64,000 nt of DNA from Leptolyngbya sp. FACHB-8 (GTDB lineage: Bacteria; Cyanobacteriota; Cyanobacteriia; Elainellales; Elainellaceae). A program made the translations under genes and the position numbers. Numbering within the stretch: position 1 is the stretch's first letter; every line of letters starts with the position of its first letter. Where the stretch lies: contig NZ_JACJOO010000074.1 in the NCBI RefSeq assembly GCF_014695575.1, forward strand, positions 1 through 64,000, written 5' to 3'. This document shows positions 2,310 to 26,391 of this stretch, in pieces. Below the pieces are notes generated by a model. The model saw only the letters and a list, made by a program, of their open reading frames with translations. It made no database searches and had not been told where the DNA came from.

Positions 2310-2543
2310 ATGCTTTCACGAGTCTGGAGTGCATCACTCATTGGCATTGATGCGGTTAAAGTTGGGGTTGAAACGGACATTGCCGGGGGCTTACCCGGCA
2401 TCGTTGTCGTGGGCCTCCCGTCTCAGGAAGTGCAGGAATCAAAAGAGCGCGTTAGGGCCGCGGTGAAAAACGCAGGTTACGCCTTTCCCATGCGCAAGAT
2501 TGTCGTTAACCTCACCCCTGTTAGGTTTACTTGGAGTAAATAA
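2310..2543 (+). pseudogene. comM: comM 5' fragment (Mg-chelatase-like AAA+ ATPase)
   Basis: The first ~70 codons match the ComM/YifB N-terminal domain, with the typical runs [36 protein letters not shown] and [18 protein letters not shown]. Similarity stops abruptly after NLTP (about 2520), and the frame closes after seven unrelated codons. I take the ATG at 2310 as the true start because MLSRVWSAS is the usual beginning; an in-frame ATG lies at 2286. ComM is a hexameric helicase that promotes branch migration in natural transformation. The rest of the gene lies 23 kb away at 25585-26391, and the middle, including Walker A, is absent from this window. Confidence 0.92.
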
Positions 2544-2849
2544 ATTGAAAACGGCTGAAAACCCTTCTGTTATGAGAGGTTCAAATTTTTGGTGGGTGTA
2601 ACGAGTCGATGAGAGGTATGGTCCTGCTCTGGTTGGTTACGATTTCTTATAATCTTTGGCGGAAAGCGGGAACCTGCTTCCCTACATTACTTCTACTTTG
2701 TAAACACGTTTGAGGAACCCATTCGCTTTCTTGAGCAAATTGTTCATACTTTTCTCCTGTCGAAGCAATTGGGAATAGTATCATTGAGCGAACGGACAGT
2801 TATTATTCATCAAACTTCCTGTGGACAAAGCCATGAAGCTCTAACATGA

Positions 2850-3140
2850 TTAAGCGGTGCTAAGAAAACTGCTGCCGGTTACAGAAAGACAAAGAAGTTG
2901 ATCCAGCGATGGTGGAGGGAACTAGATCTTGCCCAAGAGGCTTTAGCAGACCGTGGAGGTTTTTACTATACGTTCATCTCTCTTGTTGAGAGGGGAGGGA
3001 CAAGTCCTACTTGGCTAACGTTGATCGGCTAACTCAAATCCTTGACATTTCAATACAGAGCTTTTTCTTCGATATGAGGTGGAGCTGCCGTCTAATGATT
3101 CCACTGAGTAACAGTGATAAATTAGATATCAATTGATGTT
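2850..3140 (+). pseudogene. Frameshifted XRE-family regulator remnant
   Basis: From about 2880 the forward frame reads through an XRE-type helix-turn-helix (LDLAQEALADRGG, FISLVERGGTSPT), then hits a stop at about 3030. A +1 shift near 3005 restores the rest of the motif (LANVDRLTQILDIS) and runs to TGA at about 3137. No start codon is obvious upstream. It ends about 35 bases before the HExxH gene, so it probably once regulated that gene. The stretch from 2544 to 2850 shows nothing recognisable. Confidence 0.6.
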
Positions 3141-3172
3141 TCTCTATATAATTTCAGTTTTTCTTCGTAAAA

Positions 3173-4573
3173 GTGAGCTGGAAATTGACTATGACGCCTG
3201 AAAAAACGATGGGTCAGAAATTAGAGGAGATACTGAAAAAATGGCGTGGCTTTCCGAACCTTACGGCAGACGGTAGATATGAATTCTTGACTCAAACTGT
3301 GTTTGCGAACTCAGTTGAAATGAAGGATTTTGTAGAACTTTATAAGGATCCTAAAAATGTAATTCTTATAAGGAAAATCTGGTCAGTAATCATTCATGAA
3401 ATAACCCATTGGCTGGATCATACAAGCACTCTTTGGGGCCAAAATAATCTTGTCTCTATATATAATGCGTTTAATGCCTTTTACGTCCAGGATGAAGAGG
3501 AGTTATGGAGAATAATAAAACTATTTTCTGAGATTTCAAGAAATAATTGCGAGGATTACTATCGTGTAAACGGTCCAGCAATTCATAGTAATTCCTGGCG
3601 TAGAGTACCATGGAAATATGAGTACTCTTTTGGCTTGCAGTATGGCAGTGATGGTAGACTCCGGTCAGATCGTCCATTCCTAACTACACGATTTAAGAGC
3701 TTTGAGGATTCTCTTATCAGCCGAGTGCCACTTTCTATTGTTTCCTTAATGGAAACAATAGCTACAGCCGCCGAGTTTGAGCTTGAATATACAATTATTT
3801 TTCCTGAACTTGAAAAACAACTAGATGCGGATCAATTGCTAGTTGAATCCCAATTGTTTCAGTCTATGTGTATTGAGAAAATTTATAATCCAGAGCTAAC
3901 TGCTTACTCAGTGGCGACTCATTGTCTCGCCAATTTTATGGAAATTCAGGATATTGGATTAGCTTATCGGCTCTCATCAGCTCTAGCATCATTATGCCTC
4001 AATCTTCCCTCTCAAGTATTTAGTCAGCTTAAATTACCTAAAGATTTCAAAGAACAACAGCCTTTATCAATACATAGATTTATAGATGAGAGAGCTTCTC
4101 AACTGTTATCTGGAAAAGATAGAAGCTTTGCTTTCTTTGTGCTGGCTCAATATGCTTCAAGTGATAATGTTTCAAATTTATATGAGTGGCTTGAAAGCGT
4201 AGTCACTTCTGCTGGCTTGCCTCCCATTCCAGAACTACAAAGTATGGTGGTTAGTGAAATGGAAGTTATAGAGCAGGAGATGTTAAATGGCCCCCTAACA
4301 GGTCGTCTGAGAGGAATACTAGAAATCGGTAGGCAAAACTTCATGAAACGAGGTATGAGTGGCAATCATTTAATATGCCTGGAATCACTCTTCTCCAAGA
4401 AGAAGGAACTAAAGTTACCTCCAATACTGTTAGGAGATGATCAAGTCATTGATATTGAATCAGCGTCAAATTTAGTGCCATATCCTGTTGATGAGCTTGA
4501 AAGCTGGATTTTTGAAGTATGGGATCTTGAAGGTAGATTAAGAGAATTTCAACGAGCATGTATAGCTTATTGA
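3173..4573 (+). CDS. HExxH-motif protein of unknown family
   Basis: A 466-residue protein I do not recognise overall. Its one clear signature is a zincin-like motif, IIHEITHWLDH, with H75, E76 and H79 numbered from the GTG at 3173; an ATG at 3191 is an alternative start. The sequence is soluble, mostly helical-looking, with no signal peptide. A decayed XRE regulator lies directly upstream, an arrangement reminiscent of XRE-ImmA/IrrE pairs, but the protein is much longer than ImmA and the third zinc ligand cannot be assigned. The gene is AT-rich and lacks HIP1 sites, unlike the host genes in this window, which suggests transfer. Metalloprotease function is inference. Confidence 0.75.
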   Translation: MSWKLTMTPEKTMGQKLEEILKKWRGFPNLTADGRYEFLTQTVFANSVEMKDFVELYKDPKNVILIRKIWSVIIHEITHWLDHTSTLWGQNNLVSIYNAFNAFYVQDEEELWRIIKLFSEISRNNCEDYYRVNGPAIHSNSWRRVPWKYEYSFGLQYGSDGRLRSDRPFLTTRFKSFEDSLISRVPLSIVSLMETIATAAEFELEYTIIFPELEKQLDADQLLVESQLFQSMCIEKIYNPELTAYSVATHCLANFMEIQDIGLAYRLSSALASLCLNLPSQVFSQLKLPKDFKEQQPLSIHRFIDERASQLLSGKDRSFAFFVLAQYASSDNVSNLYEWLESVVTSAGLPPIPELQSMVVSEMEVIEQEMLNGPLTGRLRGILEIGRQNFMKRGMSGNHLICLESLFSKKKELKLPPILLGDDQVIDIESASNLVPYPVDELESWIFEVWDLEGRLREFQRACIAY

Positions 4574-4743
4574 TAGAGATACTATTTATAGTTCGTATCT
4601 CTTCGTGTTGTCTTATTTTTCTAACACTGATACTTAAACATTGATAGGAATATTAATTGAAGACTTTAAGATTTTCACTCTAAGATCTAAGAGAATCTAC
4701 ATTTATTGTCCCCCCCCGCAGCGGTGTAAGATAAAAGGCTATT

Positions 4744-6189
4744 GTGTTACTGGATGACCTAGAGATAAACATGGTTACTCTTGAAAGTCTAGAACAATGG
4801 CTACTTGCTCCGTCAGAGACGGAGCAGCTTGAATTTAAGGAAGCTAAACAGCAATACGATACAACTAAACTTTTACGGTACTGTGTGGCTTTAGCTAATG
4901 AGGGTGGAGGTTATTTAGTCTTAGGCGTCACCAATAAGCCTCCTCGTACCATAGTTGGGACACAGGCATTTCCATCTCCAACGTCTTTGAACAGTGTTAA
5001 AGCTCTAATTGTAGAGAAACTTAGATTTCGGGTAGAAGTAACAGAGCTACAGCACCCTAATGGTCGGGTGCTCGTTTTTGAAATACCTACTCGTCCTGTA
5101 GGGCAAGCATTCACTTTTGATGGCGCTTACTTGATGCGCGCGGGTGAAGATTTGGTGCCAATGACGCCAGATATGCTCAAGCGCATTTTTGCTGAAGATC
5201 ATCAAGACTGGTTTTCTCAACCTGCTCGCTCTGATGCTAGCTCTGATAATGTTATTGCCCTTCTCGATACCCAAACATATTTTGAGCTGTTAGATATTCC
5301 CTATCCAACAAGCCGCGATGCTGTTTTAGAGCGGTTGCAGAGTCAAGATTTAATTAAACAAACATCTCAAGGTTGGATAATCACAAATCTGGCCGCTATT
5401 CTTCTGGCAAAAAAATTAGATGCCTTTTCTTCCAATCTGGCTCGTAAAGCTCCCCGTGTCGTTATATATGAAGGCATAAACAAGCTTCAAACGCGCGATG
5501 ACAAGACAGGTAATCGCGGTTATGCAGTTGGCTTTGAAGGGCTAGTTGATTTCGTCCACTCAGCAGCCCCCAAAAATCGCTTCATTGAAGAAGTAATGCG
5601 GGAAGAAGTAAAAATGTTTCCAAAACAGGCTTTGAGGGAGTTAATTGCTAACGCACTAGTGCATCAAGATTTTCTCGCTACAGGTGCTTCAGTAATGATT
5701 GAGATGTACAGTGATCGAATTGAAATTTCTAATCCTGGTATTCCACCTATTCAAGTAGAACGCTTTATTGACGAATATCGTTCACGTAACGAGCAACTCG
5801 CTGACCTTATGCGTCGTTTTGGCATTTGCGAGGAAAAGGGTAGCGGTATTGACAAAGTAGTAAGTGCAGCAGAGATTTTTCAGTTACCTGCGCCAGATTT
5901 TCGAGTTGGTGAGACACGTACTACATCCGTCTTATTCGCTCATCAAGACTTTTCCGATATGGGTAAATCAGATCGAATTCGCGCTTGCTACCAACATTGC
6001 TGCCTAAAATATGTTAGTAATCAACGAATGTCAAACCAGTCTCTACGGGAACGATTTGGTTTTGACGAGTCGAAGAATGTTTTAGTGTCTCAAGTAATTG
6101 GTGTGACCAAAGAAGCAGGACTAATCAAAGCAGATGACTCTGCTTCTAGTTCGACTCGCTATGCTCGTTATCTTCCCTTTTGGGCCTAG
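4744..6189 (+). CDS. AlbA_2 (Schlafen-like) DNA-binding protein with HATPase_c_4 domain
   Basis: A 481-residue member of the RecG-like/divergent-AAA_4 regulator family. The N-terminal AlbA_2 domain carries EFKEAKQ and ALANEGGGYLVLGVTN (about 25-65). A GHKL-type HATPase_c_4 region follows (LIANALVHQD, IEISNPG, EEKGSGIDKVV), and the C-terminus looks like a winged helix. The annotated start is GTG 4744; an ATG at 4771 (MVTLESLEQW) is equally plausible. Such proteins are common in accessory regions as presumed transcriptional regulators or defence-associated factors. The gene is AT-rich with no HIP1 site, on the same strand as and about 170 bases after the HExxH gene. The 170-base gap contains a C9 tract and nothing else notable. 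Confidence 0.85.
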   Translation: MLLDDLEINMVTLESLEQWLLAPSETEQLEFKEAKQQYDTTKLLRYCVALANEGGGYLVLGVTNKPPRTIVGTQAFPSPTSLNSVKALIVEKLRFRVEVTELQHPNGRVLVFEIPTRPVGQAFTFDGAYLMRAGEDLVPMTPDMLKRIFAEDHQDWFSQPARSDASSDNVIALLDTQTYFELLDIPYPTSRDAVLERLQSQDLIKQTSQGWIITNLAAILLAKKLDAFSSNLARKAPRVVIYEGINKLQTRDDKTGNRGYAVGFEGLVDFVHSAAPKNRFIEEVMREEVKMFPKQALRELIANALVHQDFLATGASVMIEMYSDRIEISNPGIPPIQVERFIDEYRSRNEQLADLMRRFGICEEKGSGIDKVVSAAEIFQLPAPDFRVGETRTTSVLFAHQDFSDMGKSDRIRACYQHCCLKYVSNQRMSNQSLRERFGFDESKNVLVSQVIGVTKEAGLIKADDSASSSTRYARYLPFWA

Positions 6190-6471
6190 TAGTGCTTAAA
6201 AGCAAATCTATATAATTGAGGCTCAAAGCCTAAAATGCTTACAAATCAAGTACTTGGGTGCTTAAAAGCAAATTATAGCTGACCATGCAATAATTTTTAC
6301 TCAGAGCTTTATTTCATCCTCTTTATGATTTTATATAGGATCTTGCATAGGACGATTTGAAGGCAAAAGATGAGGCATAACCTGTCTCTATTACATATGG
6401 TCTTGGGTTTTGCTCAAAATCTGCTGATGTTTAGAAAACCCTCCGTCTGGTTCAATCCCTATAAATTTCTA

Positions 6472-6720
6472 TCAAGGAATGATAATATTAGGCTGTTGCG
6501 GCTGCACCAACTCGATCGCACCCAACTTCTCTCCCAGCTCGGCCAGGTGGTCGGTGAATTGGTTGACATTATCAGCAACAGTGGCAGCTCCAGCCGTTAG
6601 CCCAACTACAGCTGTCCTATTAGTCATCAGACGCTTTAGGCGACGACCTACTTTGTTGCGACCGGGTAGCTCTAGGCTTTTCAGATTCTTCTCCAGATCC
6701 TCCAGTTCTATAAGATCTCT
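6472..6720 (-). pseudogene. C-terminal remnant of an unrecognised protein
   Basis: The minus strand reads 82 codons without a start codon, from an upstream stop at 6721-6723 to TGA at 6472. It includes GRNKVGRRLKRLMTNRT, a hydrophobic AVVGLTAGAATVAD stretch and a tail ending PNIIIP. The amino-acid pattern looks coding (alternating helix, one hydrophobic segment), so I read it as the 3' end of a lost gene. Family unknown. The rest of 6190-6868 shows no gene, only a short direct repeat (GTGCTTAAAAGCAAAT) at about 6192 and 6257. Confidence 0.4.
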
Positions 6721-6868
6721 TTATATGGATTAGTAATTTCTTTTGGAAAAGTTTTAGATTTGTTCTTTCAATAGCTTAACAAGTCAAAACAGTTGGGTAA
6801 TATTAGCTTAGTGTTCTGCGAATGATGACAGGCGATGCGAGTTAGACTTCTGTTCTTGGAGAACTTTA

Positions 6869-8146
6869 ATGGAAGCCAGAGACTCTTACCTGTCAGGAGA
6901 GCCGCCATCGTTAGATTTGACTACCGTCCCGGATATTCTTTTAACCCAAGCCCGAGAAAATAAAGCTTCCATTGCAAAGACCTTGCAGAATGTTTTAAGG
7001 CTTATCCGCTCTCATCTAGACATGGAAATCGCCTTTATATCTGAGTTTCGGGATGGAAGGCGTTTCTTTCGGTATATCGATTCAAAACATGAAGAAACTC
7101 CAATTCAAGTTGGGGGCTCGGGCCCTTTAGATGAAAGCTATTGCCAGCGAGTTGTCGATGGACGCCTACCTGAGTTAATTACAGATGCCTTGCAATGTCC
7201 GGCAGCTCTGGAATTAGAAGTCACGATAGCTCTGCCTGTTGGAGCCCATCTCAGTGTTCCGATCCGTTTAGGCAATGGTCGTCTCTATGGTACCTTCTGT
7301 TGCTTTAGCCGTGAGCCTGACCCAACTCTGGTCGAGCGAGATCTTTCCCTAATGCGGGTATTTGCAGAATTTGTCAGCCAGCAAATTGAGCAAGACCTTG
7401 TCGCAAATCAAGCCCGCCGTGAAGTAACCGAGAGAATTCTTTCAGTCTTAAACACCTCAAGTATTGGTATTGTCTACCAGCCAATCTACTGTGTCTCCCA
7501 GGACCGTTTTATTGGTTTTGAATCCCTCACCCGATTCATAGCTGATCCACCTCAAGCCCCAAACGTTTGGTTTGATGAGGCCCAACAGGTAGGTTTGAGC
7601 GAGCAACTTGAAATGCTTGTGATTAGTAAGGTTCTTCAGGACATGCCTCAATTTCCTGACGATGTGTATATTACGCTCAACGTAGCCCCCGAAAATATCC
7701 TAAGTGGAGCAATTACCCGGTCTCTAGTCAATGCTCCCCTTGAGCGGATTGTTTTGGAAGTTACAGAGCATGCGCCTATCGATGATTATGAAACCTTTGA
7801 ACGCACGCTCTTCCCACTCCGAGACCAAGGGACACGATTAGCTGTAGATGACGCAGGGGCGGGATACGCCAGCTTTCGACACATCCTGAACCTGAAGCCC
7901 GACATCATCAAACTGGATATGAGCCTTACACGCGGTATACACCTGGATGCTGCCCGCCGTGCACTTGCCACAGCTCTCATTACATTTGCTGGAGAAACAG
8001 AGAGTCAAATTGTGGCCGAAGGGGTTGAAACCATAGCTGAATTGGAAGTGTTAAAAAAACTGCGGGTTAACAAAGTGCAGGGGTACTTGATGGGCCGTCC
8101 CATGCCGAGTTCTGATGCGACTGCATTAGTGCAGACGTCCAGCTAA
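6869..8146 (+). CDS. GAF-EAL cyclic-di-GMP phosphodiesterase (copy 1)
   Basis: A 425-residue cytoplasmic protein with an N-terminal GAF domain (about 35-180) and a C-terminal EAL domain (about 192-415). EAL enzymes hydrolyse c-di-GMP to pGpG. The metal- and base-binding residues are all present: Q204 in YQPI, E218 in FESL (a Ser replaces the Ala of EAL), N271, E297 and E300, D327-D328, K348, E384 and Q404. It should therefore be active. No GGDEF domain is present. The GAF lacks an obvious chromophore Cys. The ATG follows TTGGAGAACTTTA, giving an SD-like GGAG. The paralogue at 12807-14084 differs by about 46 residues by my count, most densely in the first 35 residues. Confidence 0.93.
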   Translation: MEARDSYLSGEPPSLDLTTVPDILLTQARENKASIAKTLQNVLRLIRSHLDMEIAFISEFRDGRRFFRYIDSKHEETPIQVGGSGPLDESYCQRVVDGRLPELITDALQCPAALELEVTIALPVGAHLSVPIRLGNGRLYGTFCCFSREPDPTLVERDLSLMRVFAEFVSQQIEQDLVANQARREVTERILSVLNTSSIGIVYQPIYCVSQDRFIGFESLTRFIADPPQAPNVWFDEAQQVGLSEQLEMLVISKVLQDMPQFPDDVYITLNVAPENILSGAITRSLVNAPLERIVLEVTEHAPIDDYETFERTLFPLRDQGTRLAVDDAGAGYASFRHILNLKPDIIKLDMSLTRGIHLDAARRALATALITFAGETESQIVAEGVETIAELEVLKKLRVNKVQGYLMGRPMPSSDATALVQTSS

Positions 8147-8149
8147 ATT

Positions 8150-8290
8150 TCCACCGGCCTGGTAATCATTAGAGCAATTAGCTAGTGGGGTTAAGGCAGA
8201 GGGGTGAAGTCCTTCTTAAGACTTGGTAAATTAAGCGTGCCGTATCCTGACGTCAAGCCCGTCCACGGAAAATTCAAGTGGTTGTGACAC
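8150..8290 (+). other. Conserved 3' region after GAF-EAL copy 1
   Basis: About 140 bases between the stop codon and the terminator are retained in both copies of the duplication, with blocks such as AAGACTTGGTAAATTAAGCG unchanged. A small hairpin AGGGG-TGAA-CCCCT is perfect in copy 2 and partly mismatched here (AGGGG-TGAA-GTCCT). It could be a 3'UTR element or a small RNA; no coding potential is visible. Confidence 0.35.
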
Positions 8291-8325
8291 CCCGCCAAAA
8301 CCATCTGAGGGGCGGGATTTTTTTT
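8291..8325 (+). terminator. Rho-independent terminator after GAF-EAL copy 1
   Basis: CCCGCC and GGCGGG arms around a 14-base loop, followed by a run of eight T. The same terminator is present in copy 2 at 14229-14267. Confidence 0.85.
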
Positions 8326-8421
8326 GAACAAGTGGAGGCGAACGCCCTAGGGGACAAATTTCCTGTCTCTCTGCTGCGGTTCAAGGGAATATTCTAGGGA
8401 GGGAGCGGGAGGGCGATCGCT

Positions 8422-8697
8422 ATGTTTGAAACGCACTATTTTGTGACGGGCTCTTATGGAGTGCTTTCAAACAAAGGAGAAGTTTCGTTCTCGTTCCGCA
8501 AAAAAGTTTCGTTGCAGCACGACGGTACACCCGAAGGCGAGAGCGAGGAATTGCATAGATTGATTGAATCGCTGGAGAAGGAAGCGATCGCACAGCATGG
8601 ACAACACTGGCGTGCTCAAGGTTTTACAGATTCTGATGCTAGGTGGCAGCTATTAACCATCACACCCCTCGCTACTTCTAGAAGGAGCGAGCCATGA
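8422..8697 (+). CDS. Small hypothetical protein (91 aa)
   Basis: Soluble 91-residue protein with no recognised domain. The N-terminal half looks beta-rich (THYFVTGSYGVLS, EVSFSFRKKVSLQ) and the C-terminal half helical. The start codon sits directly after a HIP1 site. Its stop codon overlaps the start of the next gene (ATGA at 8694-8697), so the two are probably translationally coupled. I see no paralogue in the window. Confidence 0.65.
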   Translation: MFETHYFVTGSYGVLSNKGEVSFSFRKKVSLQHDGTPEGESEELHRLIESLEKEAIAQHGQHWRAQGFTDSDARWQLLTITPLATSRRSEP

Positions 8698-8864
8698 CTG
8701 AAGCAATCAAGCGGTTGAGTATGGGTGTGGGGTTACTGCTCATTACTGCTCTGCTCATCTATGCAGGGATGAGTGGAAGTCGGGAGCTGCCTGAGAAAAT
8801 ACTCATCATTCTCGTGGCTGCTATAGGTGGATTCGGGGCAGGTTATGTACTTGGGAGAGGGTAG
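8694..8864 (+). CDS. 56-aa two-TM membrane peptide
   Basis: A short gene overlapping its upstream neighbour by ATGA and preceded by AGGAGCGAGCC. It encodes two predicted membrane segments (about residues 10-25 and 36-52) ending in the motif GGFGAGYVLGRG. A clear paralogue at 19591-19764 ends GSFGAGYALGRSF, with conservation concentrated in the second helix. That supports both as real genes despite their size. The function is unknown; small two-helix proteins in accessory regions may be phage- or toxin-like, but nothing here proves it. Confidence 0.65.
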   Translation: MTEAIKRLSMGVGLLLITALLIYAGMSGSRELPEKILIILVAAIGGFGAGYVLGRG

Positions 8865-9172
8865 GGGTGATCGCCCCTCGCTGTTGATGGAAAAAGGCCC
8901 GGAAGAGGTGCTACCGAGCGCGACTGAATTAGAAAATCTATTCCAAATCCTCTCACCATCCACGGCAACAACCTACAGCAGATCCACCAGTAGGCCGGGG
9001 GGAGTGGTCAGGGGGATAGGTGATGATGCGGTAGTGACAGCAGGGTGCTTAACGTTGCCCAGGTTACAGTGAATCGGTTGGGGACGAGGTAAGGCGGCAG
9101 CAAAGAAGAACTAGGCACTGCCCCTCTCTCGACTCCATGGGATACTTTTGACAATGATAGAAGACCGATCGC

Positions 9173-9343
9173 ATGCCTAAGACCTACTACCAAGACTGCT
9201 TTTACTGTGACGTTAACAACTGCACTTGCGAACATCCTCGGGGCTGCGAGTTTCTGGCTTATATCGTGCGGTGTGCAGGGGCAGGGGTAAGGATGGATGC
9301 CTCAGACTGTCCTGGATTTAAATCAGTGGAGGGCACACGGTGA
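9173..9343 (+). CDS. 56-aa Cys-rich peptide
   Basis: Pattern: DCFYCD, then C-T-C, HPRGCEFLAYIVRC and a closing DCPGFK. The seven cysteines in CxxC-like spacing suggest metal binding. The adjacent downstream gene (9340-9567) encodes a paralogue with the same order of motifs. The two overlap by GTGA and are presumably one transcript. Starts at ATG 9173 beside a GATCGC site. Confidence 0.6.
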   Translation: MPKTYYQDCFYCDVNNCTCEHPRGCEFLAYIVRCAGAGVRMDASDCPGFKSVEGTR

Positions 9344-9567
9344 TTGAAAGCTGTTGTTATGACTGCATCTTCTGTGACCCATTGAATGAGGAGTGCGGGG
9401 GGTGCATTCATCCCTATGGGCCTGAATTTATGGCTTACATGGATAGCTGTCAAATGACAGGAATAGTTGTCAGCCCTCTAGACTGCCCTGTGTTTAAACC
9501 AGTAAAGAGTGAATTACTAAAGACCACACCCCAACAGCAAGGGATTCAGAGCCATGACCGACGATGA
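9340..9567 (+). CDS. 75-aa Cys-rich peptide, paralogue of the upstream gene
   Basis: GTG start at 9340 overlapping the previous stop. Motifs: CCYDCIFCD, EECGGCIHPYGPEFMAY, then C and DCPVFKPV. The arrangement matches the 56-aa upstream peptide (DC-x-x-CD, HP-x-G-x-EF-x-AY, DCP-x-FK), so the pair arose by tandem duplication. The last 20 codons extend beyond the shared domain and overlap the next gene by 14 bases. Metal binding is an inference from cysteine spacing. Confidence 0.6.
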   Translation: MIESCCYDCIFCDPLNEECGGCIHPYGPEFMAYMDSCQMTGIVVSPLDCPVFKPVKSELLKTTPQQQGIQSHDRR

Positions 9568-9772
9568 ACTAAAAGCACAGGTTTCCGAACTCGTTCCTTT
9601 CATAGAAGCGCTAACGGATGAAGAATTCGTGAATCTGCTACATACAGTCAGCAGAATGCAGATTAGTCGAGGACTGCAAGCGGAAGACGTAACCCTGTAC
9701 CCTGCAACCCCGGAGGAAATCATAGCCATTCTTGAAGCTATTAAGAACCCAGGCGCTCGCCCCAAGCAATGA
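9554..9772 (+). CDS. Small acidic hypothetical protein (72 aa)
   Basis: Helical, acidic 72-residue protein (MTDDELKAQVSELVPF at the start; TPEEIIAILEAIKNPG near the end). It begins inside the end of the Cys-rich gene and completes a five-gene run on the plus strand from 8422. No family recognised. The 9773-10254 stretch that follows holds a hairpin repeat and no convincing gene. Confidence 0.6.
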   Translation: MTDDELKAQVSELVPFIEALTDEEFVNLLHTVSRMQISRGLQAEDVTLYPATPEEIIAILEAIKNPGARPKQ

Positions 9773-9840
9773 ACCAACTGCGGAGGGCAGTTCATCCGTG
9801 AGTGACAATCGCTCAATGCCTAATTTTTCCCGTCGCTAAA

Positions 9841-12190: not shown

Positions 12191-12207
12191 AATTGTGAGT
12201 ATTGCCA

Positions 12208-18807: not shown

Positions 18808-18915
18808 AACCATTCGATTGATCTTGACTATATCTTCCCACTCTATCGAGCAGCAACTCTACAGCAGATCCACGAGGAAATTAGTGACACTGGCTGAGAA
18901 TATGGGATTGCCTCA

Positions 18916-18981
18916 AATAAAAGCCGCAGTGCGGTGGAGTGCACGCAGCGTCAGTGCTAATCAATTGGATTGTGTCACAAG
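18916..18981. repeat. Hairpin/GAATTGTG repeat, copy e
   Basis: AATAAAAGCCGCAGTGCGG then, about 38 bases on, GGATTGTGTCACAAG. It is the most diverged copy of the family and is followed by another A-tract hairpin at 19000. Confidence 0.45.
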
Positions 18982-18999
18982 GGACGATCGTCAATAAAA

Positions 19000-19021
19000 A
19001 GCCCGCCTTCAATGGTGGGCT
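19000..19021. terminator. A-tract hairpin
   Basis: AGCCCGCC/GGTGGGCT stem preceded by AATAAAA, shortly after a GATCG site. Confidence 0.5.
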
Positions 19022-19139
19022 GAAATTTGACCTATGCTTACTGCTCGCATTGTTACATGTATGAGGCGAGCGGCCCCCCTGCCTGACCGTAGCAGACATT
19101 CGACCTGCTTCTTTTGTGCTAGATGTGAATATAGAGTCG

Positions 19140-19436
19140 ATGGAAGTGATCCCTATGCTGCTCAATGCAACCAGACGCATGATCTTGAAGATTAAGACGG
19201 TAGCTCCCCTGATGCAGGGGAAATGGGAATTTCGCCACGGAGAAGAAGTTATCAAAGCTGAAACCCTGGATCCAGGGGTCGCTACCATCAAAGTTCCTCT
19301 GGTTCCTGGAGATGCCCTTGATGTAGAGGTACAAGTGGCAACCCAATACGACTACAACCACGAAGTAGTCTCCACGCGCTACACCATAACCAAGGTCAAC
19401 GCTGTCCTATTGCAAGCAGCATTGGCCAGGGCATAA
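19140..19436 (+). CDS. Beta-rich hypothetical protein (98 aa)
   Basis: From ATG 19140: MEVIPMLLNATRRMILKIKT, a long alternating-hydrophobic stretch (EVIKAETLDPGVATIKVPL; DALDVEVQVATQYDYN) suggestive of a beta-sandwich, and an Ala-rich end. An ATG at 19116 would add eight residues. No signal peptide. A clean terminator follows 48 bases later. No family recognised. Confidence 0.6.
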   Translation: MEVIPMLLNATRRMILKIKTVAPLMQGKWEFRHGEEVIKAETLDPGVATIKVPLVPGDALDVEVQVATQYDYNHEVVSTRYTITKVNAVLLQAALARA

Positions 19437-19483
19437 GAGCGATCGCTCTCACTATCTCACTTTGGAACTCCATAGTCCTTCTC

Positions 19484-19516
19484 AAAAGCCCCCAGCTTGC
19501 AGCATGGGGGCTTTTT
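19484..19516 (+). terminator. Bidirectional rho-independent terminator
   Basis: AAAAGCCCCC / GGGGGCTTTTT with a 12-base loop. A decayed copy of this terminator together with its HIP1-flanked upstream sequence lies at about 23345-23430. Confidence 0.85.
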
Positions 19517-19590
19517 ACTGTGGTTGCGATCGCAATCGTATTGAAGACCACGTAAGATCCTGGTGAACTAGCAAAACGAAGGGACGTTGC

Positions 19591-19764
19591 ATGAATGAGC
19601 AGATGAAAGGGGTAGTTGTAGGAGCCGTTTTTCTCCTTGCTACCACTGCATTTGTCTATGAGGGTATAGCTGAAGACAAGCAGCTATCAGAGCAGGTCAT
19701 CTTGGTAACTTTGGCTGGCTTGGGTAGTTTTGGCGCTGGCTATGCACTTGGGAGAAGCTTTTAG
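19591..19764 (+). CDS. 57-aa two-TM membrane peptide, paralogue of 8694-8864
   Basis: Two hydrophobic helices (about residues 7-23 and 36-53). The C-terminal motif GSFGAGYALGRSF parallels GGFGAGYVLGRG in the copy 11 kb upstream. The connecting loop is acidic (EDKQLSEQ versus RELPEK). No partner gene overlaps its start, unlike the first copy. Function unknown. Confidence 0.6.
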   Translation: MNEQMKGVVVGAVFLLATTAFVYEGIAEDKQLSEQVILVTLAGLGSFGAGYALGRSF

Positions 19765-19934
19765 GGCTGCGATCGCCCATGACCGCCGAGATGGCTAAGA
19801 ATGCAGACGATTGGCTTTTGCGGGGAGCGATCGTCCCCACCCACACTATTTAGACCACTCCCCTCGGACAGAGATACTTTGGTGCAGAACTAGAGTTAGA
19901 TGATGGTTATTAATAAATCTTTCGCTGTAAATAC

Positions 19935-20102
19935 ATGGATAACCTGCACCTGAATCTTGATGAGCTTGTGCTACTTGAATCAGCACTACTGAGCTATTAC
20001 CAGGCTTGCAAGGAAGTCCACGGGTACGGTAGCAAAACCCTCGCTGTCTCAGCATTAGTCAAGAAGGTTCAGCAGAGAATTGACTTTGAAAAACAAGCAT
20101 AG
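19935..20102 (+). CDS. Small helical hypothetical protein (55 aa)
   Basis: MDNLHLNLDELVLLESALLS at the start and SALVKKVQQRIDFEKQA at the end; soluble and helical throughout. Directly followed by a HIP1 site and an A-tract hairpin, as for several other small genes here. No paralogue seen. Confidence 0.45.
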   Translation: MDNLHLNLDELVLLESALLSYYQACKEVHGYGSKTLAVSALVKKVQQRIDFEKQA

Positions 20103-20128
20103 AGCGATCGCCACCGCCCGTAATAAAA

Positions 20129-20152
20129 AGCCCACCCCATGAGGAGCGGGCT
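20129..20152. terminator. A-tract hairpin
   Basis: AGCCC/GGGCT-based stem after TAATAAAA; same style as the hairpins at 17529 and 19000. Confidence 0.45.
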
Positions 20153-20252
20153 GTTCTCTATACCAGGTGTATCTACCGTCATTCTCCTACCCATGCCCGT
20201 CACCTTCCACAGAAGATTCACCAGCACTTCAGCAAATAGGTAAGGGCGATTG

Positions 20253-20360
20253 GTGGAGGCGCAGAGAGCAGAAGAGATAAAAGAGGTGGTAGCAAAACTG
20301 GGCTATATTGCCGATCTCATAGAAGAGGACGATTGCTTACCAGCAGAAACGGTTCAGTAA
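20253..20360 (+). CDS. Possible 35-aa acidic peptide
   Basis: GTG start, then VEAQRAEEIKEVVAKLGYI and a short acidic tail to TAA. The amphipathic helix looks protein-like but there is no paralogue or clear ribosome-binding site, so this is only a candidate. Confidence 0.25.
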   Translation: MEAQRAEEIKEVVAKLGYIADLIEEDDCLPAETVQ

Positions 20361-20443
20361 GTTTCTCGTCTAAAGCTTAACTGATGTGGCTTAGATACAT
20401 TGTTTTGGGTTTGTTCCTCACCCTGAAAACCCAAGAGACAAGA

Positions 20444-20902
20444 TCAAGCCTCTGAGTCAAGAGCTAGTGAACTCTTTAAGAGGATACCAATGGTAGGGTT
20501 TCCCATACCTTTTGTGGGAAACCCTTTCATCTTAGCTGCAAGGATGAAGACTCCATTTGAAACGTAGGGGCAAAATCCTTGAGCCTTTCCCCATTTCTCT
20601 GCCCGGTGCTTCCAATGGTAGGACGAACGCTGCTTATCAGTGATCGCTTTGGTAGGTGTTAGTTTTGCCAGGTAACACAACGCAGTAAAAAGCTGTTCCT
20701 GTAAACCTACCTCGTCTTTGATAGACAGCATTTGGTTACGAAATTCCTGCCACCTCTCCAAGGTCGCATGTCCAGATAGGCTACTTTCTCCTACGAGCCC
20801 GTATCCGGCAGAAGTTAAACGTTCATCACTGCTGAGAATATCCAATGCTTGCTCTATTTCTGTTTTTGTTGGCACTGGATAGCTGGCTTTGCTCATAGTC
20901 AC
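20444..20902 (-). CDS. Hypothetical protein (152 aa)
   Basis: Soluble protein with helical N-terminal half (EIEQALDILSSDERLTSAGY) and a C-terminal segment WKHRAEKWGKAQGFCPYVSN, then GVFILAAKMKGFPTKGMGNP. No family recognised. It lies about 290 bases downstream of the DUF262 gene on the same strand; the intervening 20903-21191 stretch has no gene. Confidence 0.6.
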   Translation of the reverse strand: MTMSKASYPVPTKTEIEQALDILSSDERLTSAGYGLVGESSLSGHATLERWQEFRNQMLSIKDEVGLQEQLFTALCYLAKLTPTKAITDKQRSSYHWKHRAEKWGKAQGFCPYVSNGVFILAAKMKGFPTKGMGNPTIGILLKSSLALDSEA

Positions 20903-21191
20903 CCTTGCAGAACTAAATCTACGTTGCCAATGTAACGCAGCGTTGCCTTATAAGAATGATCGCTCTCAGCCTTCCAGTTCAGTCAACCCTGCAAGCAGTT
21001 CCCCTGCTCCAAAGCTTCAGCAAATCGCTGGTTTATACTCCTACTTTGTTTACATGTTCATCAAGTAAAATTGTTGTGAAAGCGTTTTGAGCATTTCGCT
21101 AAAGATAAAATCAGGTAGGTGTAGCCCAGGTGATCACGGAACGGCCTGATGACTCGATCTTGGGTTGCTCGTTCCTTTTGGCCGACTGTGC

Positions 21192-23063
21192 TCATACCAG
21201 CACCTCTTTCAGGCGATCGGGAGACCATACGCGCAGCACCAGCTCCCGCAGCACTTTATAGCGTTCTTCATGCTCCGCTTTACCAAAGTGGTCATAGGGC
21301 TTGAAATCCAGGTTGTACCGTTCCCGGAACGCTTTGAACTGTGGCTTATTCTGATAGGCCGCAGCGGTAAGGCTCATAGCATAAAGATTTTGGCTGGCAT
21401 AGTGGGGGAGCTTGTCCTCAAAAATCTTGTCCTGCAAGCTACGATTCACATCTGCTGGGAGGAGCAATAGACTGGCGAAGTGATTCCGCCATTCCTCGAA
21501 TTCGTTGGTGTTAGCAAAATCACGTCCGCATTTCCTGAAGTTGTTTGCCCATATATGTTCAATATCGAAGGGATTTCTGGGGGTGCGATCGACATAGGAG
21601 TCGAACTTGTCAGGCATACCAGACTCCTTCTCAATAAAGGATGTCAGGCGTGCTAGGAGGTGGTAAATATAGCGGCGGCTAAATTGATTCAGATTAAACT
21701 CCCAAAGCCCCCCTCTTCCCCTACTAGGGATACCTTCAAAGGACACTTCATCATTGGAAAGCTTTTGTGTCAGGATCTCGACCAGCTCCTCTAAAGGTTT
21801 TCGGCGAATATCACGACATAGGAGAAACATTGCGTAAGCTGTGCTGGAGTAGCCAACACGAACGTAGTTGACCACTCGACGCATTAGCCAAATATCGAGA
21901 TAGGTTGCTGTGGCTGATATCTTGCGACGTACTGTATCGCTGTTATCGGTGTCGCAGAGGGGGGCCAACAGAACCGTATTTTGCCAGGTAAACTCATTAT
22001 GAGCGTTGTAGAAGATTGCTTCCAACCCTGGCGTGTAGGAACGGCTTGCTGACAGAATGAGTTGGTAGGTTTTGGAAAAGAAGGTGAAGTGATCGGAAAT
22101 TAACGAAGAGTTAGCCGCCTGGGTACCTAGCTTCAAGTCTGAGCGCTTGTCCCGTACCCAGCGGTGGAAAGCGCTACCGATTAATTCCCAGTCTTTGTCT
22201 GCGGCTCCGGCTTTCCGATCGCGAATCGTATCAGCATATTGTGCCCGCAACCAGGCTTTAATGCAGACGGCATCCCGTTCGGGTTCATGGCTCCCGCCCC
22301 AGGAAATAAGGTCTAAAACCTGCTGTTTCCAAATTTGGTTTGCGGTGCGCCGTTGGTCGGCATCTTCAATGGGGGCAAGCAGGTAGGCTTTGAGCATATC
22401 GACGGGGCTGAGGGGCTTACCCCGGTCATTCATGGTCTCGAAAATGGCGTAGGCATAGTTGTCGTTGTCGGTCGCGATTTCAATGAGACCTACTTTGTTC
22501 ATTAGCCAGTAAATGAAATTAGGCAAAGCTTCACCTAGTTCACCAGCCAGATCCATTGTTTCAATGTCTTCATAACGGACATATATGTTCTGAACAGATT
22601 CATCTTTGCCTTCGGGATTGAAGTCCTTGCCATGAAAAAGTGCATCAATGACAGGCAAACGTTCCTGGATGTCCAGATTGAAGCTGGGTAGCCCCCAGTT
22701 ATCGCTAAAGATCAGGGGAGCGATTGTCCCAGCAATACCTAAATCCCTTTCCTTGGCAGCATTGTGGAGATAGATAAGCAGCAGAGTCAGCGAGGTAACG
22801 CGCTGCTGTCCATCAACCAGGTAGCTCTTACCGTTCCGCTTGCTGACTATGATGGAGCCGAGGAAGTAGTCTTCGTAGGCACTGACCCGTGTGGTGGGAT
22901 CGCCCTCCCGATAGCAGTTGGAGAATTTATCACGCAGGTCGGAGAGTAGCTCGTCGATGTTCTCCTTCTCCCATTTGTACTCCCGTTGGTACTCGTCGAT
23001 TGCAAATGATTGGTTTTGCAGAAGCTGTTGAACGGTGCGGTAATGGGGCGTAATTGTACTCAT
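21192..23063 (-). CDS. GmrSD-like DUF262/DUF1524 protein
   Basis: 623 residues. The N-terminal DUF262 domain (ParB-like nucleotide-binding fold) shows YQREYKW (25-31) and the signature VDGQQRVTSLTLLL (D84-GQQR88). The C-terminal DUF1524 domain has the His-Me-type nuclease signature DIEHIWANNF (E502-H503) and the following LLLLPADVNRSLQDK. This single-chain GmrS-GmrD arrangement is that of modification-dependent (type IV) restriction endonucleases, which cut foreign modified DNA. All signatures are intact. It lacks full HIP1 octamers. Function as a defence nuclease is inference from family; which modification is recognised cannot be read from sequence. Confidence 0.88.
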   Translation of the reverse strand: MSTITPHYRTVQQLLQNQSFAIDEYQREYKWEKENIDELLSDLRDKFSNCYREGDPTTRVSAYEDYFLGSIIVSKRNGKSYLVDGQQRVTSLTLLLIYLHNAAKERDLGIAGTIAPLIFSDNWGLPSFNLDIQERLPVIDALFHGKDFNPEGKDESVQNIYVRYEDIETMDLAGELGEALPNFIYWLMNKVGLIEIATDNDNYAYAIFETMNDRGKPLSPVDMLKAYLLAPIEDADQRRTANQIWKQQVLDLISWGGSHEPERDAVCIKAWLRAQYADTIRDRKAGAADKDWELIGSAFHRWVRDKRSDLKLGTQAANSSLISDHFTFFSKTYQLILSASRSYTPGLEAIFYNAHNEFTWQNTVLLAPLCDTDNSDTVRRKISATATYLDIWLMRRVVNYVRVGYSSTAYAMFLLCRDIRRKPLEELVEILTQKLSNDEVSFEGIPSRGRGGLWEFNLNQFSRRYIYHLLARLTSFIEKESGMPDKFDSYVDRTPRNPFDIEHIWANNFRKCGRDFANTNEFEEWRNHFASLLLLPADVNRSLQDKIFEDKLPHYASQNLYAMSLTAAAYQNKPQFKAFRERYNLDFKPYDHFGKAEHEERYKVLRELVLRVWSPDRLKEVLV

Positions 23064-23517
23064 ACCAACCTTCTATGGTAAGGAGTTCCTGCCCCTACCT
23101 ACTGCCAAGCGACCTCTGGAGCAGGAAATTTGTCCTCTCTAATATGCCCTTCAGAAGCTGGAATGTCTCATATTTATTTTTTCTACGAATTTTTGATTTA
23201 GGCTTCAGTCGACAGCGGGTTTAGCTGCTCCCATTCCGCTGACGATCGCACCCTGGAAAAGGCTAAACTTTGTACTGCCAATCCATCCGATGGCACGAGT
23301 TTTCTGCATAACATGCCCCACATAGGCAAACTTGTCTGGGTTGGAGCGATCGCCCTCACTAGCCTACTCCGGCACTCCGCAGTTTTCCTCAACACAAGTT
23401 CCCAAGCTCGCAGCATGGGGGTTTTATGTGGCTGCTTTGTAAAGAGCAAGTGCTTTTTCTAACTTTTGATGAAGGGTATCTACCGGGAAGCGTCTTAGCA
23501 TAAAACAGAATTTTTTA
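23064..23517. other. Gene-free stretch with a decayed terminator copy
   Basis: A HIP1 site at about 23351 is followed by CCCTCACT, CTCCGCAG, CCCAAGCTCGCAGCATGGG and GGTTTTA, recognisable as a degraded version of 19438-19516. No coding sequence is convincing. Confidence 0.45.
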
Positions 23518-23850
23518 ATGTCCCTGTTTATGTCCGTGGTTATGAGTTATCAAGCACCCAAAAACCTTGATAGAAGCGTAATTCAGCTAGCCCTTACTCT
23601 TGTGTATAAGACAGCTAATTTACATCGGCTCATCTATATACAGATGCTCCAAAACCTTGAAAAGTTGAATACCCTGCAACAGACATCCAACAGCATCTTA
23701 GGTTTACCTGGAGAAGATGAGGAAATAAATTTTTACATCATGATGCTCCAGCAGCAGTGCGAGAAGCAAAGGAAATATCTGGATGCAGTCTACAAAAGCC
23801 AGGATGACCTGCTTCAGCAAATACACAGCATTAACTCTTCAAATGATTGA
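23518..23850 (+). CDS. Hypothetical helical protein (110 aa)
   Basis: Helical throughout (LALTLVYKTANLHRLIYIQM; EDEEINFYIMMLQQQCEKQR), with a Gln/Lys-rich coiled coil at the end. An internal ATG at 23542 (MSYQAPKNLDRSV) is an alternative start. AT-rich and outside the HIP1-bearing core; no family recognised. Confidence 0.5.
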   Translation: MSLFMSVVMSYQAPKNLDRSVIQLALTLVYKTANLHRLIYIQMLQNLEKLNTLQQTSNSILGLPGEDEEINFYIMMLQQQCEKQRKYLDAVYKSQDDLLQQIHSINSSND

Positions 23851-24009
23851 TAAAGTGATGGGCTTGAGAGTAAAGAAGTACTCGTTCTTCATCAGCAAAC
23901 CGATCCAGAATCCGTAGTTCTTCAAAAGAAATTCTTCCAGCTTACGGTAGATGGGTTTTGGTTTTAGGAGCATCTACCTCGATGCCAGCCACCGCATCAA
24001 TTAAACTTA

Positions 24010-24110
24010 GGAGGTTTCTGCATAAGAATTTACCCAGAATGTTGGTGCTTTGCCCGCGGCGCGGGCAAAGCACCAACATTCTGGGGGTAATTTCATTACT
24101 GGAAATCTCC
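24010..24110. mobile_element. 101-bp MITE, copy 1
   Basis: Terminal inverted repeats GGAGGTTTC / GAAATCTCC, flanked on both sides by TTA (24007-24009 and 24111-24113), the expected target-site duplication. The centre is a near-perfect palindrome with arms ending in GGTGCTTTGCCCGC. A second copy, also 101 bp and flanked by TAA, is at 56621-56721. On the minus strand the sequence either side of it (LIDLGSARTDS before, LIDAVAGIEVDAPKTKTHLP after) looks coding, so it may have landed in an older gene remnant. It carries no transposase. Confidence 0.8.
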
Positions 24111-24187
24111 TTAGAATCAGTTCTGGCACTTCCTAAATCTATCAAATTCCTAGTAACTACATTTAGTATTATTGACTTGAAATAGTA

Positions 24188-24727
24188 TTACCACAGCTTT
24201 CCATAAGCATACCTATATTTTCCCATTTCAAATGCAACACAAAGTTCTAGTGTTATTTTCTCCCAGCTAAGGCTCACCAATCTTCTGTTATTAAAGTTAC
24301 TCAAATCACTTTCATCAGTAGTTGCGATTATCACCTTCTCTTCTGTTTCTTCTACAATATTTATTGCAGTCGCAATAAGCAGAACATCACCATCGAGGGA
24401 CTTTTTGTCTGCTAAAACTATTCCTTTATTTCTAGCTTCCCCCCATAGCTGTGCCGCTTTATGTACAATCCCTGTTGTGAGGCGCCAGTATACTAATCTA
24501 TCAGTCCGTTGTGTTAGTTTATCGAGGCGCTGAATACTAACTATACTCCTGTTCTGAAAGTACTCTCGTCTACACTCGTAATCACAAATCTCTGGTATCC
24601 CAAAAAGAAAAGACTCATCCTGCCGAGCCTCAAACCACTGTTTGCACTCTTTCGTTTTTGGGCTATCAGGGTTTGGATTAGACACCTGACTTAATACACC
24701 TGTATCAAGTAGGATTATCACGCTCAA
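24188..24727 (-). CDS. PIN-domain protein (VapC-like)
   Basis: 179 residues with the acidic signature of PIN ribonucleases: D8 in IILLDTGVLSQV, the Glu cluster in IPEICDYECRREYF, LDGDVLLIATAI, and TTDESDLSNF near the C-terminus. PIN toxins cleave tRNA or rRNA in a metal-dependent way. Its start overlaps the 3' end of the upstream 258-aa gene by 23 bases, so the two form one operon like a toxin-antitoxin pair, though the partner is much larger than a normal VapB. AT-rich and without HIP1 sites. Toxin activity is inference. Confidence 0.8.
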   Translation of the reverse strand: MSVIILLDTGVLSQVSNPNPDSPKTKECKQWFEARQDESFLFGIPEICDYECRREYFQNRSIVSIQRLDKLTQRTDRLVYWRLTTGIVHKAAQLWGEARNKGIVLADKKSLDGDVLLIATAINIVEETEEKVIIATTDESDLSNFNNRRLVSLSWEKITLELCVAFEMGKYRYAYGKLW

Positions 24728-25481
24728 ACCTATTCCTATAAAACTCCGAAGACTCTCTCATTTCCTCTTCAGAGTATTCTTGCTTCCATTGCTCAACAAG
24801 TTCTCTATAGGTAATTTTTCCAGGTTCGCGTGCATTACCACTTGCCCGAATTCTTTTGATTCGCTCAACCCCATCTTCGGAGGATTCAGTCTTTTCTAAT
24901 TGTTTTTCGATTGCCAATATAATAGTGTCTTTGAATTTCTCAAGAAGGTCATTTCTAACCCCAATACCCGGAAAGAAAATTTGCTCTTTTATTCGAGATT
25001 TTGAGAACCGACCAATCCGAGTAGTATATCGGATAATCTTTTTTACATGCTCTTGTGAGGGCTTGCGACGAGCTAAAGCTAGAGCTAAACGTTGATACCT
25101 TTGACGTGTTGATGGTAATACAGCGTTCCAATTTTCTGCAACCACTTCCGCTTGTCGAACCATAGCTTCAAAAAGTTCTCGTAAAACCCTCTCCATTAAT
25201 GGGGCTTCACCATCATCAGGCTGGAACTTCTTATCCTTAAAGTAGGAGTACCACTCTAAGTAAGTTCTGCCCTGCTCATGGGTATGAGCTATAGGGCTAA
25301 CCGCTGTGGGGGATCCCAATTCTTGATGCAAAAAATCTTGAATCTGATTCTCAAGAAGATCATTGTCAGCCAAGGCGATCTGACTCATACTCCGCCCCAT
25401 ATAAGTAAGTAACTTTTCCCATGCCAATGGTATTGGCAGGAGATAGACTAGGAGCAAAATGATTTGCGCTTTCACTTTCAT
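24705..25481 (-). CDS. Hypothetical partner of the PIN protein (258 aa)
   Basis: I do not recognise this family. The start at 25481 has a good ribosome-binding sequence (AAGAGGT, nine bases upstream) and gives an N-terminal hydrophobic stretch (IILLLVYLLPIPLAW); ATGs at 25400 and 25388 would remove it. The rest is a charged, helical protein with repeated basic/acidic segments (RQRYQRLALALARRKPS; EEEMRESSEFYRNRFERDN). The C-terminus resembles antitoxin-like acidic helices. It is co-transcribed with and overlaps the PIN gene, and its 5' end lies about 100 bases from the comM 3' fragment, transcribed divergently. Confidence 0.65.
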   Translation of the reverse strand: MKVKAQIILLLVYLLPIPLAWEKLLTYMGRSMSQIALADNDLLENQIQDFLHQELGSPTAVSPIAHTHEQGRTYLEWYSYFKDKKFQPDDGEAPLMERVLRELFEAMVRQAEVVAENWNAVLPSTRQRYQRLALALARRKPSQEHVKKIIRYTTRIGRFSKSRIKEQIFFPGIGVRNDLLEKFKDTIILAIEKQLEKTESSEDGVERIKRIRASGNAREPGKITYRELVEQWKQEYSEEEMRESSEFYRNRFERDNPT

Positions 25482-25584
25482 ATTATTCTACCTCTTGCTG
25501 TTGTGCTTCTATATCATCTTTGTGGAATTCTTCTACAACGTGAAAGCCTTTACCAGAAGGGGTTTTGGCGTTTTGGCTGTAGAT

Positions 25585-26391
25585 AAATCATTCGACGAAG
25601 CTCTGGAAGTCACCCGCATTCATTCCGTGGCCGGGTTGCTGAAGCAACGAGGAACGTTGGTGAGCGATCGCCCCTTCCGCAGCCCCCATCACTCCGCCTC
25701 TGGCCCCTCTTTAGTAGGTGGTGGCAGTTTCCCAAAACCCGGCGAAATCTCTCTGGCCCACCGTGGCATCTTGTTTCTGGACGAGCTAACAGAATTTAAA
25801 CGGGACGTTTTAGAATTCCTTCGTCAGCCGCTTGAGGATGGTTACGTCACCATCTCACGGGCTCGTCAGTCTCTCGGATTTCCTGCCCAATTTACTCTGG
25901 TCGCCAGCACCAACCCCTGCCCCTGTGGCTACTTTGGCGATACGGTACAGTCCTGTACCTGTAGCCCTCGCCAGCGCGAACAGTATTGGGCTAAACTTTC
26001 CGGACCACTGATGGATCGGATTGATTTACAAGTAGCGGTCAACCGCTTGAAGCCCGAGGAAATGGTGCAGGTATCGGGCGGCGAGAGTTCAGAGGTCGTG
26101 CGAGAGCGGGTGGAATTGGCGCGCGATCGCGCTAACCATCGCTTTGTAGACGAAAGCCTGCGCTGCAATGCCGAAATGCAAAGCCGCCACCTGAAAAAAT
26201 GGTGCCACCTCGACGACAACAGCCGCCTGTTACTGGAAGGAGCCATCCGTAAACTCGGCCTTTCGGCTCGTGCCACCGATCGCGTCCTCAAAGTGGGCCG
26301 CACAATCGCAGACCTGGCCGGGGATGAGCAATTGCAAACTCACCACGTTGCCGAAGCAATCCAGTACCGTACCATCGATCGGATGCAATGA
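25585..26391 (+). pseudogene. comM: comM 3' fragment
   Basis: From SFDEALEVTRIHSVAG to the end RTIDRMQ this is a faithful ComM C-terminal half: the lid region RPFRSPHHSASGPSLVGGG, Walker B ILFLDELTEF, the sensor-1 region VASTNPCPCGYFGD and the Mg_chelatase_C domain (LDDNSRLLLEGAIRKLGLSA). The preceding codons of the open frame (25459-25580, a hydrophobic run) are not ComM. Walker A (GPPGSGKT in ComM) and all between residue ~78 and ~237 are absent. The sequence is otherwise undamaged, so the break may be recent. Its TGA overlaps the next ATG. Confidence 0.92.

Follow-up and report, generated by a model that had tools for sequence, protein, structure and literature searches.

A 23-kb island splitting comM in the cyanobacterium Leptolyngbya sp. 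FACHB-8 is probably the trimmed remainder of a Tn554-like element

ComM has a helicase role, AbaR islands insert in its gene, comM, and the transposon Tn554 itself targets radC. Here, we describe a stretch of 64,000 nucleotides from Leptolyngbya sp. FACHB-8 (hereafter named the window) in which comM lies in two parts on either side of an accessory island. The window corresponds to bases 1-64000 of contig C72 (136,112 bases), which starts 2.3 kb upstream of the first comM part, in an assembly of 6.93 Mb, 95 contigs and 99.47% completeness (genome G000).

According to the accessible sections of PMC4774983, mobile genetic elements disrupt comM in Aggregatibacter, Acinetobacter, Mannheimia, Francisella and Pseudomonas, and a benefit that the element would draw from blocking host transformation has been proposed; the words cyanobacter-, Synechocystis and Nostoc are absent from its text. 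Tn6022-like (Tn7-type) and Tsy elements target the Walker B region of comM via TnsF; in the accessible part of that source, cyanobacteria come up solely in connection with a CRISPR-associated Tn7 element and in a reference (PMC10293859). Tn554-related transposons, as far as the accessible sections of the two sources go, are reported in Staphylococcus and Enterococcus, where they leave a 6-bp footprint without target duplication (PMC10214605), and actinobacteria have been added to their hosts (PMC3414803). Among interrupted cyanobacterial genes, 22 plus 3 are listed and comM is not named in Table 1 of the partly accessible PMC4874684; the accessible part of PMC7292380 holds nothing on comM. The original prediction for this locus, which a model made from the DNA letters, knew of no such case in a cyanobacterium. 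Our own literature search also found no report of a comM interruption in a cyanobacterium, a weak negative since comM also matches the abbreviation Comm.; the event is nevertheless not singular, as a genome survey described below shows.

The main features of the split gene, with the same-genus genome G001 as ComM reference, are the following.

2310-2519, + strand: comM 5' fragment, codons 1-70, 87% amino-acid identity to G001 ComM, ends NLTP
2519-2521, no strand: left junction, where the comM alignment ends after ...CTCACCCCT(G); presumed deletion breakpoint
2520-25586, no strand: accessory island between the comM fragments, GC 0.38-0.51 in 1-kb steps
25517-25587, + strand: putative right terminus of a Tn554-like element, CTTTGTGGAATTCTTCTACAACGTGAAAGCC ... 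GCTGTAGATAAA, homologous to the right ends in genomes G100 and G210
25587-25592, + strand: presumed 6-bp footprint/core ATCATT adjoining the terminus, assigned by eye
25588-26391, + strand: comM 3' fragment, codons 242-508, 88% amino-acid identity to G001 over 268 residues, Mg_chelatase E 1.9e-68

As had been predicted, one comM gene is split into two parts of the same orientation, about 23.07 kb apart. A short foreign tail and a stop follow codon 70 of the 5' fragment (open reading frame (ORF) 2286-2543). The 3' fragment retains Walker B (by eye), and its open frame reaches upstream to an ATG at 25459. Alignment to the intact 508-codon comM of G001 defines the gap as codons 71-241, i.e., 171 codons or 513 nt; the predicted loss is thereby upheld, at a size above the "~160 codons" first given. 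Walker A, which by eye reads GPPGSGKT in G001, falls within the missing segment. Because of their length and identity, chance is excluded for both fragments: they are real and belong to one comM gene. Searches of the whole genome by profile and by full-length query found neither the missing segment nor a second comM. The full-length ComM query (E <= 1e-20) matched nothing beyond the two parts. Besides comM, PF13541 (ChlI) matches a single 504-aa frame with 31.8 bits, and PF01078 (Mg_chelatase) has three further weak matches with 23-36 bits, their frames being 323-693 aa long; these residual matches are taken to be other AAA proteins. Since Walker A is gone, loss of ComM function would be expected; according to the original prediction, it should lower natural transformation with divergent DNA.

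The 3' fragment of the window starts at codon 242/243, just before FDEALEV. comM is cut at that same point, after codon 243, in two genomes of another family, G100 (apparently a Pantanalinema metagenome-assembled genome) and G210. In G100, the 5' part of comM ends ...PPLSF and is directly followed by the left end of the element and by three genes:

G100 tnpA: 371 aa, Phage_integrase 6.4e-34
G100 tnpB: 640 aa, Phage_integrase 8.8e-36
G100 tnpC: 289 aa, DUF6262, 5.4e-17

The G210 contig ends after the first 130 codons of tnpA. On the other side of the inserts, the right ends (about 70 bp) align locally with scores of 28 (window-G100), 34 (window-G210) and 27 (G100-G210), the corresponding maxima being 17, 19 and 17 in 3000 shuffles each. 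When 2280 other island segments were compared on both strands with the G100 and G210 ends, the top scores were 22 and 23. A motif combining the element end with the adjoining comM sequence was also searched in 388 genomes drawn without a completeness filter. With zero mismatches, it occurs at three places, which are the G000, G100 and G210 junctions. With up to two mismatches, it occurs at 20 places in 19 genomes, and ComM adjoins only these same three junctions; as the motif was built from them, only its absence elsewhere is informative.

The G210 element end recurs beside a response-regulator gene (L139 1-61, G210:C389), identical over 55 nt; therefore, this end belongs to something mobile. 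Next to the right terminus, each of the three junctions has a different set of six bases (ATCATT in the window, GAGCTT in G210, AAGGTT in G100), which the footprint rule permits; the left counterpart in the window is lost. At the second G210 copy, the adjoining GAGCTT is identical to the six bases of comM that flank the comM copy on its left, which is what a Tn554-type footprint rule predicts if the second copy came from comM. Terminal inverted repeats of the island were sought and rejected: the candidate, an imperfect inverted match of 25 columns, has a score of 14, equalled by 4.8% of 1000 random segment pairs, and its core, with one mismatch, is found at 19 genomic places versus 14 for a reversed control.

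The G100 trio has a counterpart on a Staphylococcus saprophyticus plasmid, where an integrase gene, a second integrase gene and a DUF6262 gene stand in the same order, next to a JAB-domain gene and the cargo gene fexA. Its products share 45%, 38% and 33% identity with G100 TnpA, TnpB and TnpC, respectively. We take fexA elements of this kind to be members of the Tn554 family, a naming based on layout; likeness is thus judged via the S. saprophyticus trio and not via Tn554 itself. As in Tn554-related transposons, adjacent genes for an ordinary and a large tyrosine recombinase and a third gene of the same direction lie beside one end in G100, and a specific target is used, comM codon 242/243 in G000, G100 and G210. 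Host phylum and target differ. The right terminus of the window is common to the tnpABC-bearing G100 element, whereas its left terminus is not seen; tnpABC is present in G100 and absent from the window copy, which is therefore classed as a derivative and not as a member.

We estimate a probability of about 0.8 that the island is the remainder of a Tn554-like element that inserted in comM and was then trimmed by a one-sided deletion. A site-specific transposon related to Tn554 would have entered comM at codon 242/243, so that its left end and tnpABC came to adjoin comM codon 243. A single deletion, from after comM codon 70 into the element, would then have removed codons 71-241, the left end and tnpABC, leaving comM non-functional and the element unable to move by itself. 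Since the missing part of comM and the missing tnpABC would have adjoined each other, one deletion suffices. The insertion step is well supported by the sequence comparisons; the deletion step, and the former presence of tnpABC in the window copy, we infer. The break would thus be of an ordinary type, with its second step unusual, and is for the most part accounted for.

As stated in the original prediction, no integrase or transposase is visible. Ten island ORFs were scanned with Pfam and NCBIfam; Pfam detected no recombinase among them and NCBIfam nothing above cut-offs, and nothing in the 64-kb window significantly matched six recombinase-type queries taken from other comM inserts. No tnpA homologue was found in the whole G000 genome, though the query matches 18 of 290 genomes, which agrees with the deletion account. 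The prediction had also assumed a mechanism other than a simple transposon insertion, a claim that is not supported, given the Tn554-like terminus at a codon common to G100 and G210. Near that view stands a one-step replacement of comM codons 71-241 by foreign DNA through illegitimate recombination, e.g., during transformation. Such an event would combine insertion and target loss and would need no recombinase, but it does not predict that the codon and the 70-bp end are shared with two genomes of another family, and we find it hardly credible.

At the left junction, a misjoin at 2519/2520 could have skipped a comM segment and tnpABC that are in fact present in the cell. The missing pieces would indeed form one contiguous segment, the assembly consists of 95 contigs, and the comM inserts of G100 and G210 break up across contigs. 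However, positions 2400-6100 match nothing but themselves in the assembly; this stretch being single-copy, no repeat that could drive a misjoin is apparent, and neither missing piece was found on another contig. We therefore regard an assembly error as very improbable.

Several observations weigh against a trimmed Tn554-like element. What links the window copy to the Tn554-like group is the target codon and a right terminus of about 70 bp, of which three examples are available in total. No left end or tnp remnant was seen in the window copy, and the window has no significant match to the TnpA/B/C queries from G036 and G100. The two comM parts of G100, like those of G210, fall on separate contigs, and the inserts are known from their end stretches only; in the insert stretches compared, no cargo common to the window and these two inserts was found. 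The Tn554-like element in the comM gene of G036 occupies a different codon (216) and has a dissimilar right end (scores 7-9). Only three of the 25 tnpA places found in 18 of 290 genomes are in comM, the other 22 having no comM within their flanks. Finally, the left breakpoint is without a comparator, and two events are possible. In G291 (L167 363-734), comM codons 1-67 are joined in frame to codons 456-508 with no insert; since internal deletion of comM thus occurs without an insert, the order of events in the window is not proven.

The other tnpA places include recQ (three, including two that by eye lie at its Walker A; L142, L144 and L145, upstream of tnpA) and sites directly behind dnaN (two; L151 and L161). 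As most tnpA places are elsewhere, comM is one target among several. The Tn554-like cyanobacterial elements lean towards DNA-handling genes (comM, recQ, the dnaN end).

ComM was searched in 36 family genomes and then in 388 genomes of the class that are 90% complete or more, of which 343 gave a match. From the genomes with several, weak or no ComM matches, 44 were selected and re-searched, and the resulting counts are lower bounds. Large inserts split comM in at least 23 of the 343 comM-bearing genomes. In 17 of them, the parts lie more than 2 kb apart on one contig (G000, G017, G036, G094, G135, G171, G181, G194, G217, G242, G243, G250, G251, G280, G298, G300 and G322); in six, they lie on different contigs and meet at about the same codon (G018, G100, G175, G205, G210 and G221). 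The insert sites are near comM codons 37-41, 110, 216, 227, 242, 304 and 345-358. Not counted were one-part cases (e.g., G028, G086, G090, G247, G271, G286), adjacent or overlapping frameshift-like cases (e.g., G010, G046, G269, G330, G148, G201, G236, G346, G364), genomes in which a partial or second copy accompanies an intact comM (G106, G157, G264, G276, G357), and G291. In G357, the partial comM is about 32 kb away from the intact one (C9:192137-193663, 226010-226310), and separate partial copies are also seen in G157 and G276; these may perhaps be elements that bring their own comM end.

The 23 cases comprise 13 with a serine recombinase, three with Tn554-like genes (G036 at codon 216, G100 and G210 at codon 242), one of phage type, the window, and five without an assigned recombinase, some of which had ends that were not fetched (G175, G181, G221, G243, G300). 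In G017 and G018 (codon ~112), large serine recombinases with 62% mutual identity lie directly inside the insert. Relatives that are 27-46% identical to the G017 enzyme, scored in end pieces of the inserts, occur in G094, G135, G171, G194, G205, G217, G242, G251, G280, G298 and G322. NCBIfam was applied to three of the 13: against XisF, the fdxN element excision recombinase (cut-off 375 bits), G018 scores 476, G135 492 and G171 368, just below. The 13 serine-recombinase inserts (loci L039 4330-5826 on the - strand, L042/L043 for G017, L093-L100, L106-L111 and L117) measure 23-72 kb where both comM parts are on one contig, and they occupy codons ~110 (three), 304 (six) and 345-358 (four). The insert of the small genome G250 (C1:1173400-1191200, L118), 17 kb at codon ~305, carries a phage-type integrase and a phage-type RNA polymerase gene (PHROG 414, with a weaker N4-like match).

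comM can also be interrupted twice. The comM of G181 aligns in three parts (codons 1-55, 37-116 and 108-508) separated by about 22 and 24 kb, and a similar double interruption is seen in G243, where the first part is on another contig. The breaks are near codons 37-41 and 110, with inserts of about 22-26 kb where measurable (L087-L091, L104), and the insert ends that were fetched contain no recombinase of the types tested. Such genes lend some plausibility to a history in which the comM of the window received two elements, near codon 70 and at codon 242, which were then fused by an intervening deletion that also took out the middle. On the other hand, among the 44 re-examined genomes there is no clear insertion near codon 70, the sole break in that region (codon 67 in G291) being a plain internal deletion; no element end is recognised at the left junction, and one extra event is required. 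Two fused elements are, in our view, improbable, and a single Tn554-like insertion followed by deletion remains the preferred reading.

With respect to site and machinery, the described comM elements differ from the window element in several ways. According to the accessible text, proteobacterial mobile elements likewise use comM as a repeated site, their hosts being Proteobacteria and their integrases others (PMC4774983). Tsy and Tn6022-like elements resemble the window element in their strict comM specificity and in cutting the ATPase region, and Tsy likewise uses tyrosine recombinases; they use Walker B, whereas the window element is about 60 codons upstream, near Walker A (PMC10293859, accessible part). 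The window junction is at codon 242 and Walker B at about codon 304 (by eye), so the site is not that of AbaR/Tn6022-type elements. No Tn7-type genes appeared in the ten island ORFs scanned with Pfam, no dedicated search having been made. It is the codon-304 serine group that cuts the Walker B region (by eye), as Tn6022-like and Tsy elements do in Proteobacteria. Elements of the fdxN type also split genes in cyanobacteria, and serine recombinases related to XisF flank comM in 13 genomes; they use a serine and not a tyrosine recombinase, and other codons than the window element. The best window match of the G017/G018 serine recombinase queries has an E value of 0.43 and lies outside the island. 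A developmentally excised fdxN-type element was ruled out for the window since 171 codons are gone and the island contains no recognisable recombinase: comM would not be restored by excision.

Elements of the XisF type are able to excise exactly; some of them might therefore switch ComM, and with it the uptake of divergent DNA, off and on. A wider proposal would make comM a general, many-sited landing gene in cyanobacteria, reached independently by Tn554-like transposons, an element with a phage-like tyrosine integrase and XisF-like serine-recombinase elements, some of the last acting as ComM on/off switches and the window representing a locked-off end state made permanent by a deletion. We consider this proposal conceivable, though rather doubtful.

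Beside the island, GC is ~0.50 on the left and 0.53-0.59 on the right, at 26-31 kb. DNA matches to 6000-25590 (E <= 1e-5) were obtained in five of the 36 family genomes, G000 counted; G001 is not among them and has no match to this stretch at that threshold. Paralogues of island stretches are found elsewhere in the same genome, on C12 and C76. The genes and repeats of the island are listed below.

3173-4573, + strand: 466-aa ORF, HExxH-like motif by eye, without family match
4744-6189, + strand: AlbA_2/Schlafen-type DNA-binding and RecG-C-like HATPase protein (PF04326 6.2e-15, PF13749 2e-22)
6869-8146, + strand: GAF-EAL protein, copy 1 of 2 (Pfam)
12807-14084, + strand: GAF-EAL-like protein, copy 2, assigned from copy 1 (first 300 nt 86% identical)
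15170-15619, + strand: response-regulator receiver domain (PF00072 1.4e-13)
21192-23063, - strand: GmrSD-type (DUF262/DUF1524) protein, defence-like cargo (PF03235 1e-34, PF07510 2.6e-7)
24000-24117, no strand: palindromic repeat of about 117 bp, resembling a miniature inverted-repeat transposable element (MITE), with four more genomic copies, 97% identical
24188-24727, - strand: PIN-domain-like protein (PF01850 E 3.2e-4, 21.7 bits, below the cut-off of 23.6)
24705-25481, - strand: 258-aa protein with a hydrophobic N terminus (by eye), directed away from the right terminus, no match above cut-offs

The GAF-EAL gene is duplicated together with its flanks (6829-8395 and 12767-14336, 5.94 kb apart). 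The five genomic copies of the MITE-like repeat are on C31, C33, C51, C69 and C72. Directly before the 466-aa ORF, at about 2870-3100, a sequence resembling a broken helix-turn-helix (Xre-like) gene was noted by eye. Near the right end, a PIN-like gene and a gene for a protein with a hydrophobic N terminus are found in both the window and G100, with dissimilar sequences. ARAGORN detected no tRNA within the window. Upstream of comM, a 27-bp inverted repeat (1976-2032, 96% complementary, 3-nt loop), possibly a terminator, lies 3' of a histidine-kinase-like gene.

Dating of the break by relative rates was tried with ten outgroups and abandoned. The 3' fragment shows 8-12 amino-acid changes on the window side versus 7-15 on the G001 side, i.e., no acceleration; in the 5' fragment, changes number 2-5 versus 2-4, higher on the window side with nine of the ten outgroups, too few to use. 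The lack of excess change in the 3' fragment could fit a recent event or a retained function.

Overall, an odd-looking broken gene now has a likely explanation: as a one-sided deletion would account for both the missing comM segment and the missing recombinase genes, the puzzle of a deleted target without an integrase is likely answered. Insertion of XisF-like serine and Tn554-like elements into comM was not found described in the literature searched, and Tn554-like elements occur here in a phylum that the accessible parts of PMC10214605 and PMC3414803 do not name as host. Several recombinase classes choose comM in cyanobacteria, which suggests that the conflict of mobile DNA with natural transformation is not confined to Proteobacteria and Firmicutes, for which it has been described, but extends to these organisms. 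Concrete genomes are thereby identified in which reversible ComM loss can be tested. The main interest of the locus thus lies less in a single gene break than in comM as a repeated cyanobacterial landing site.

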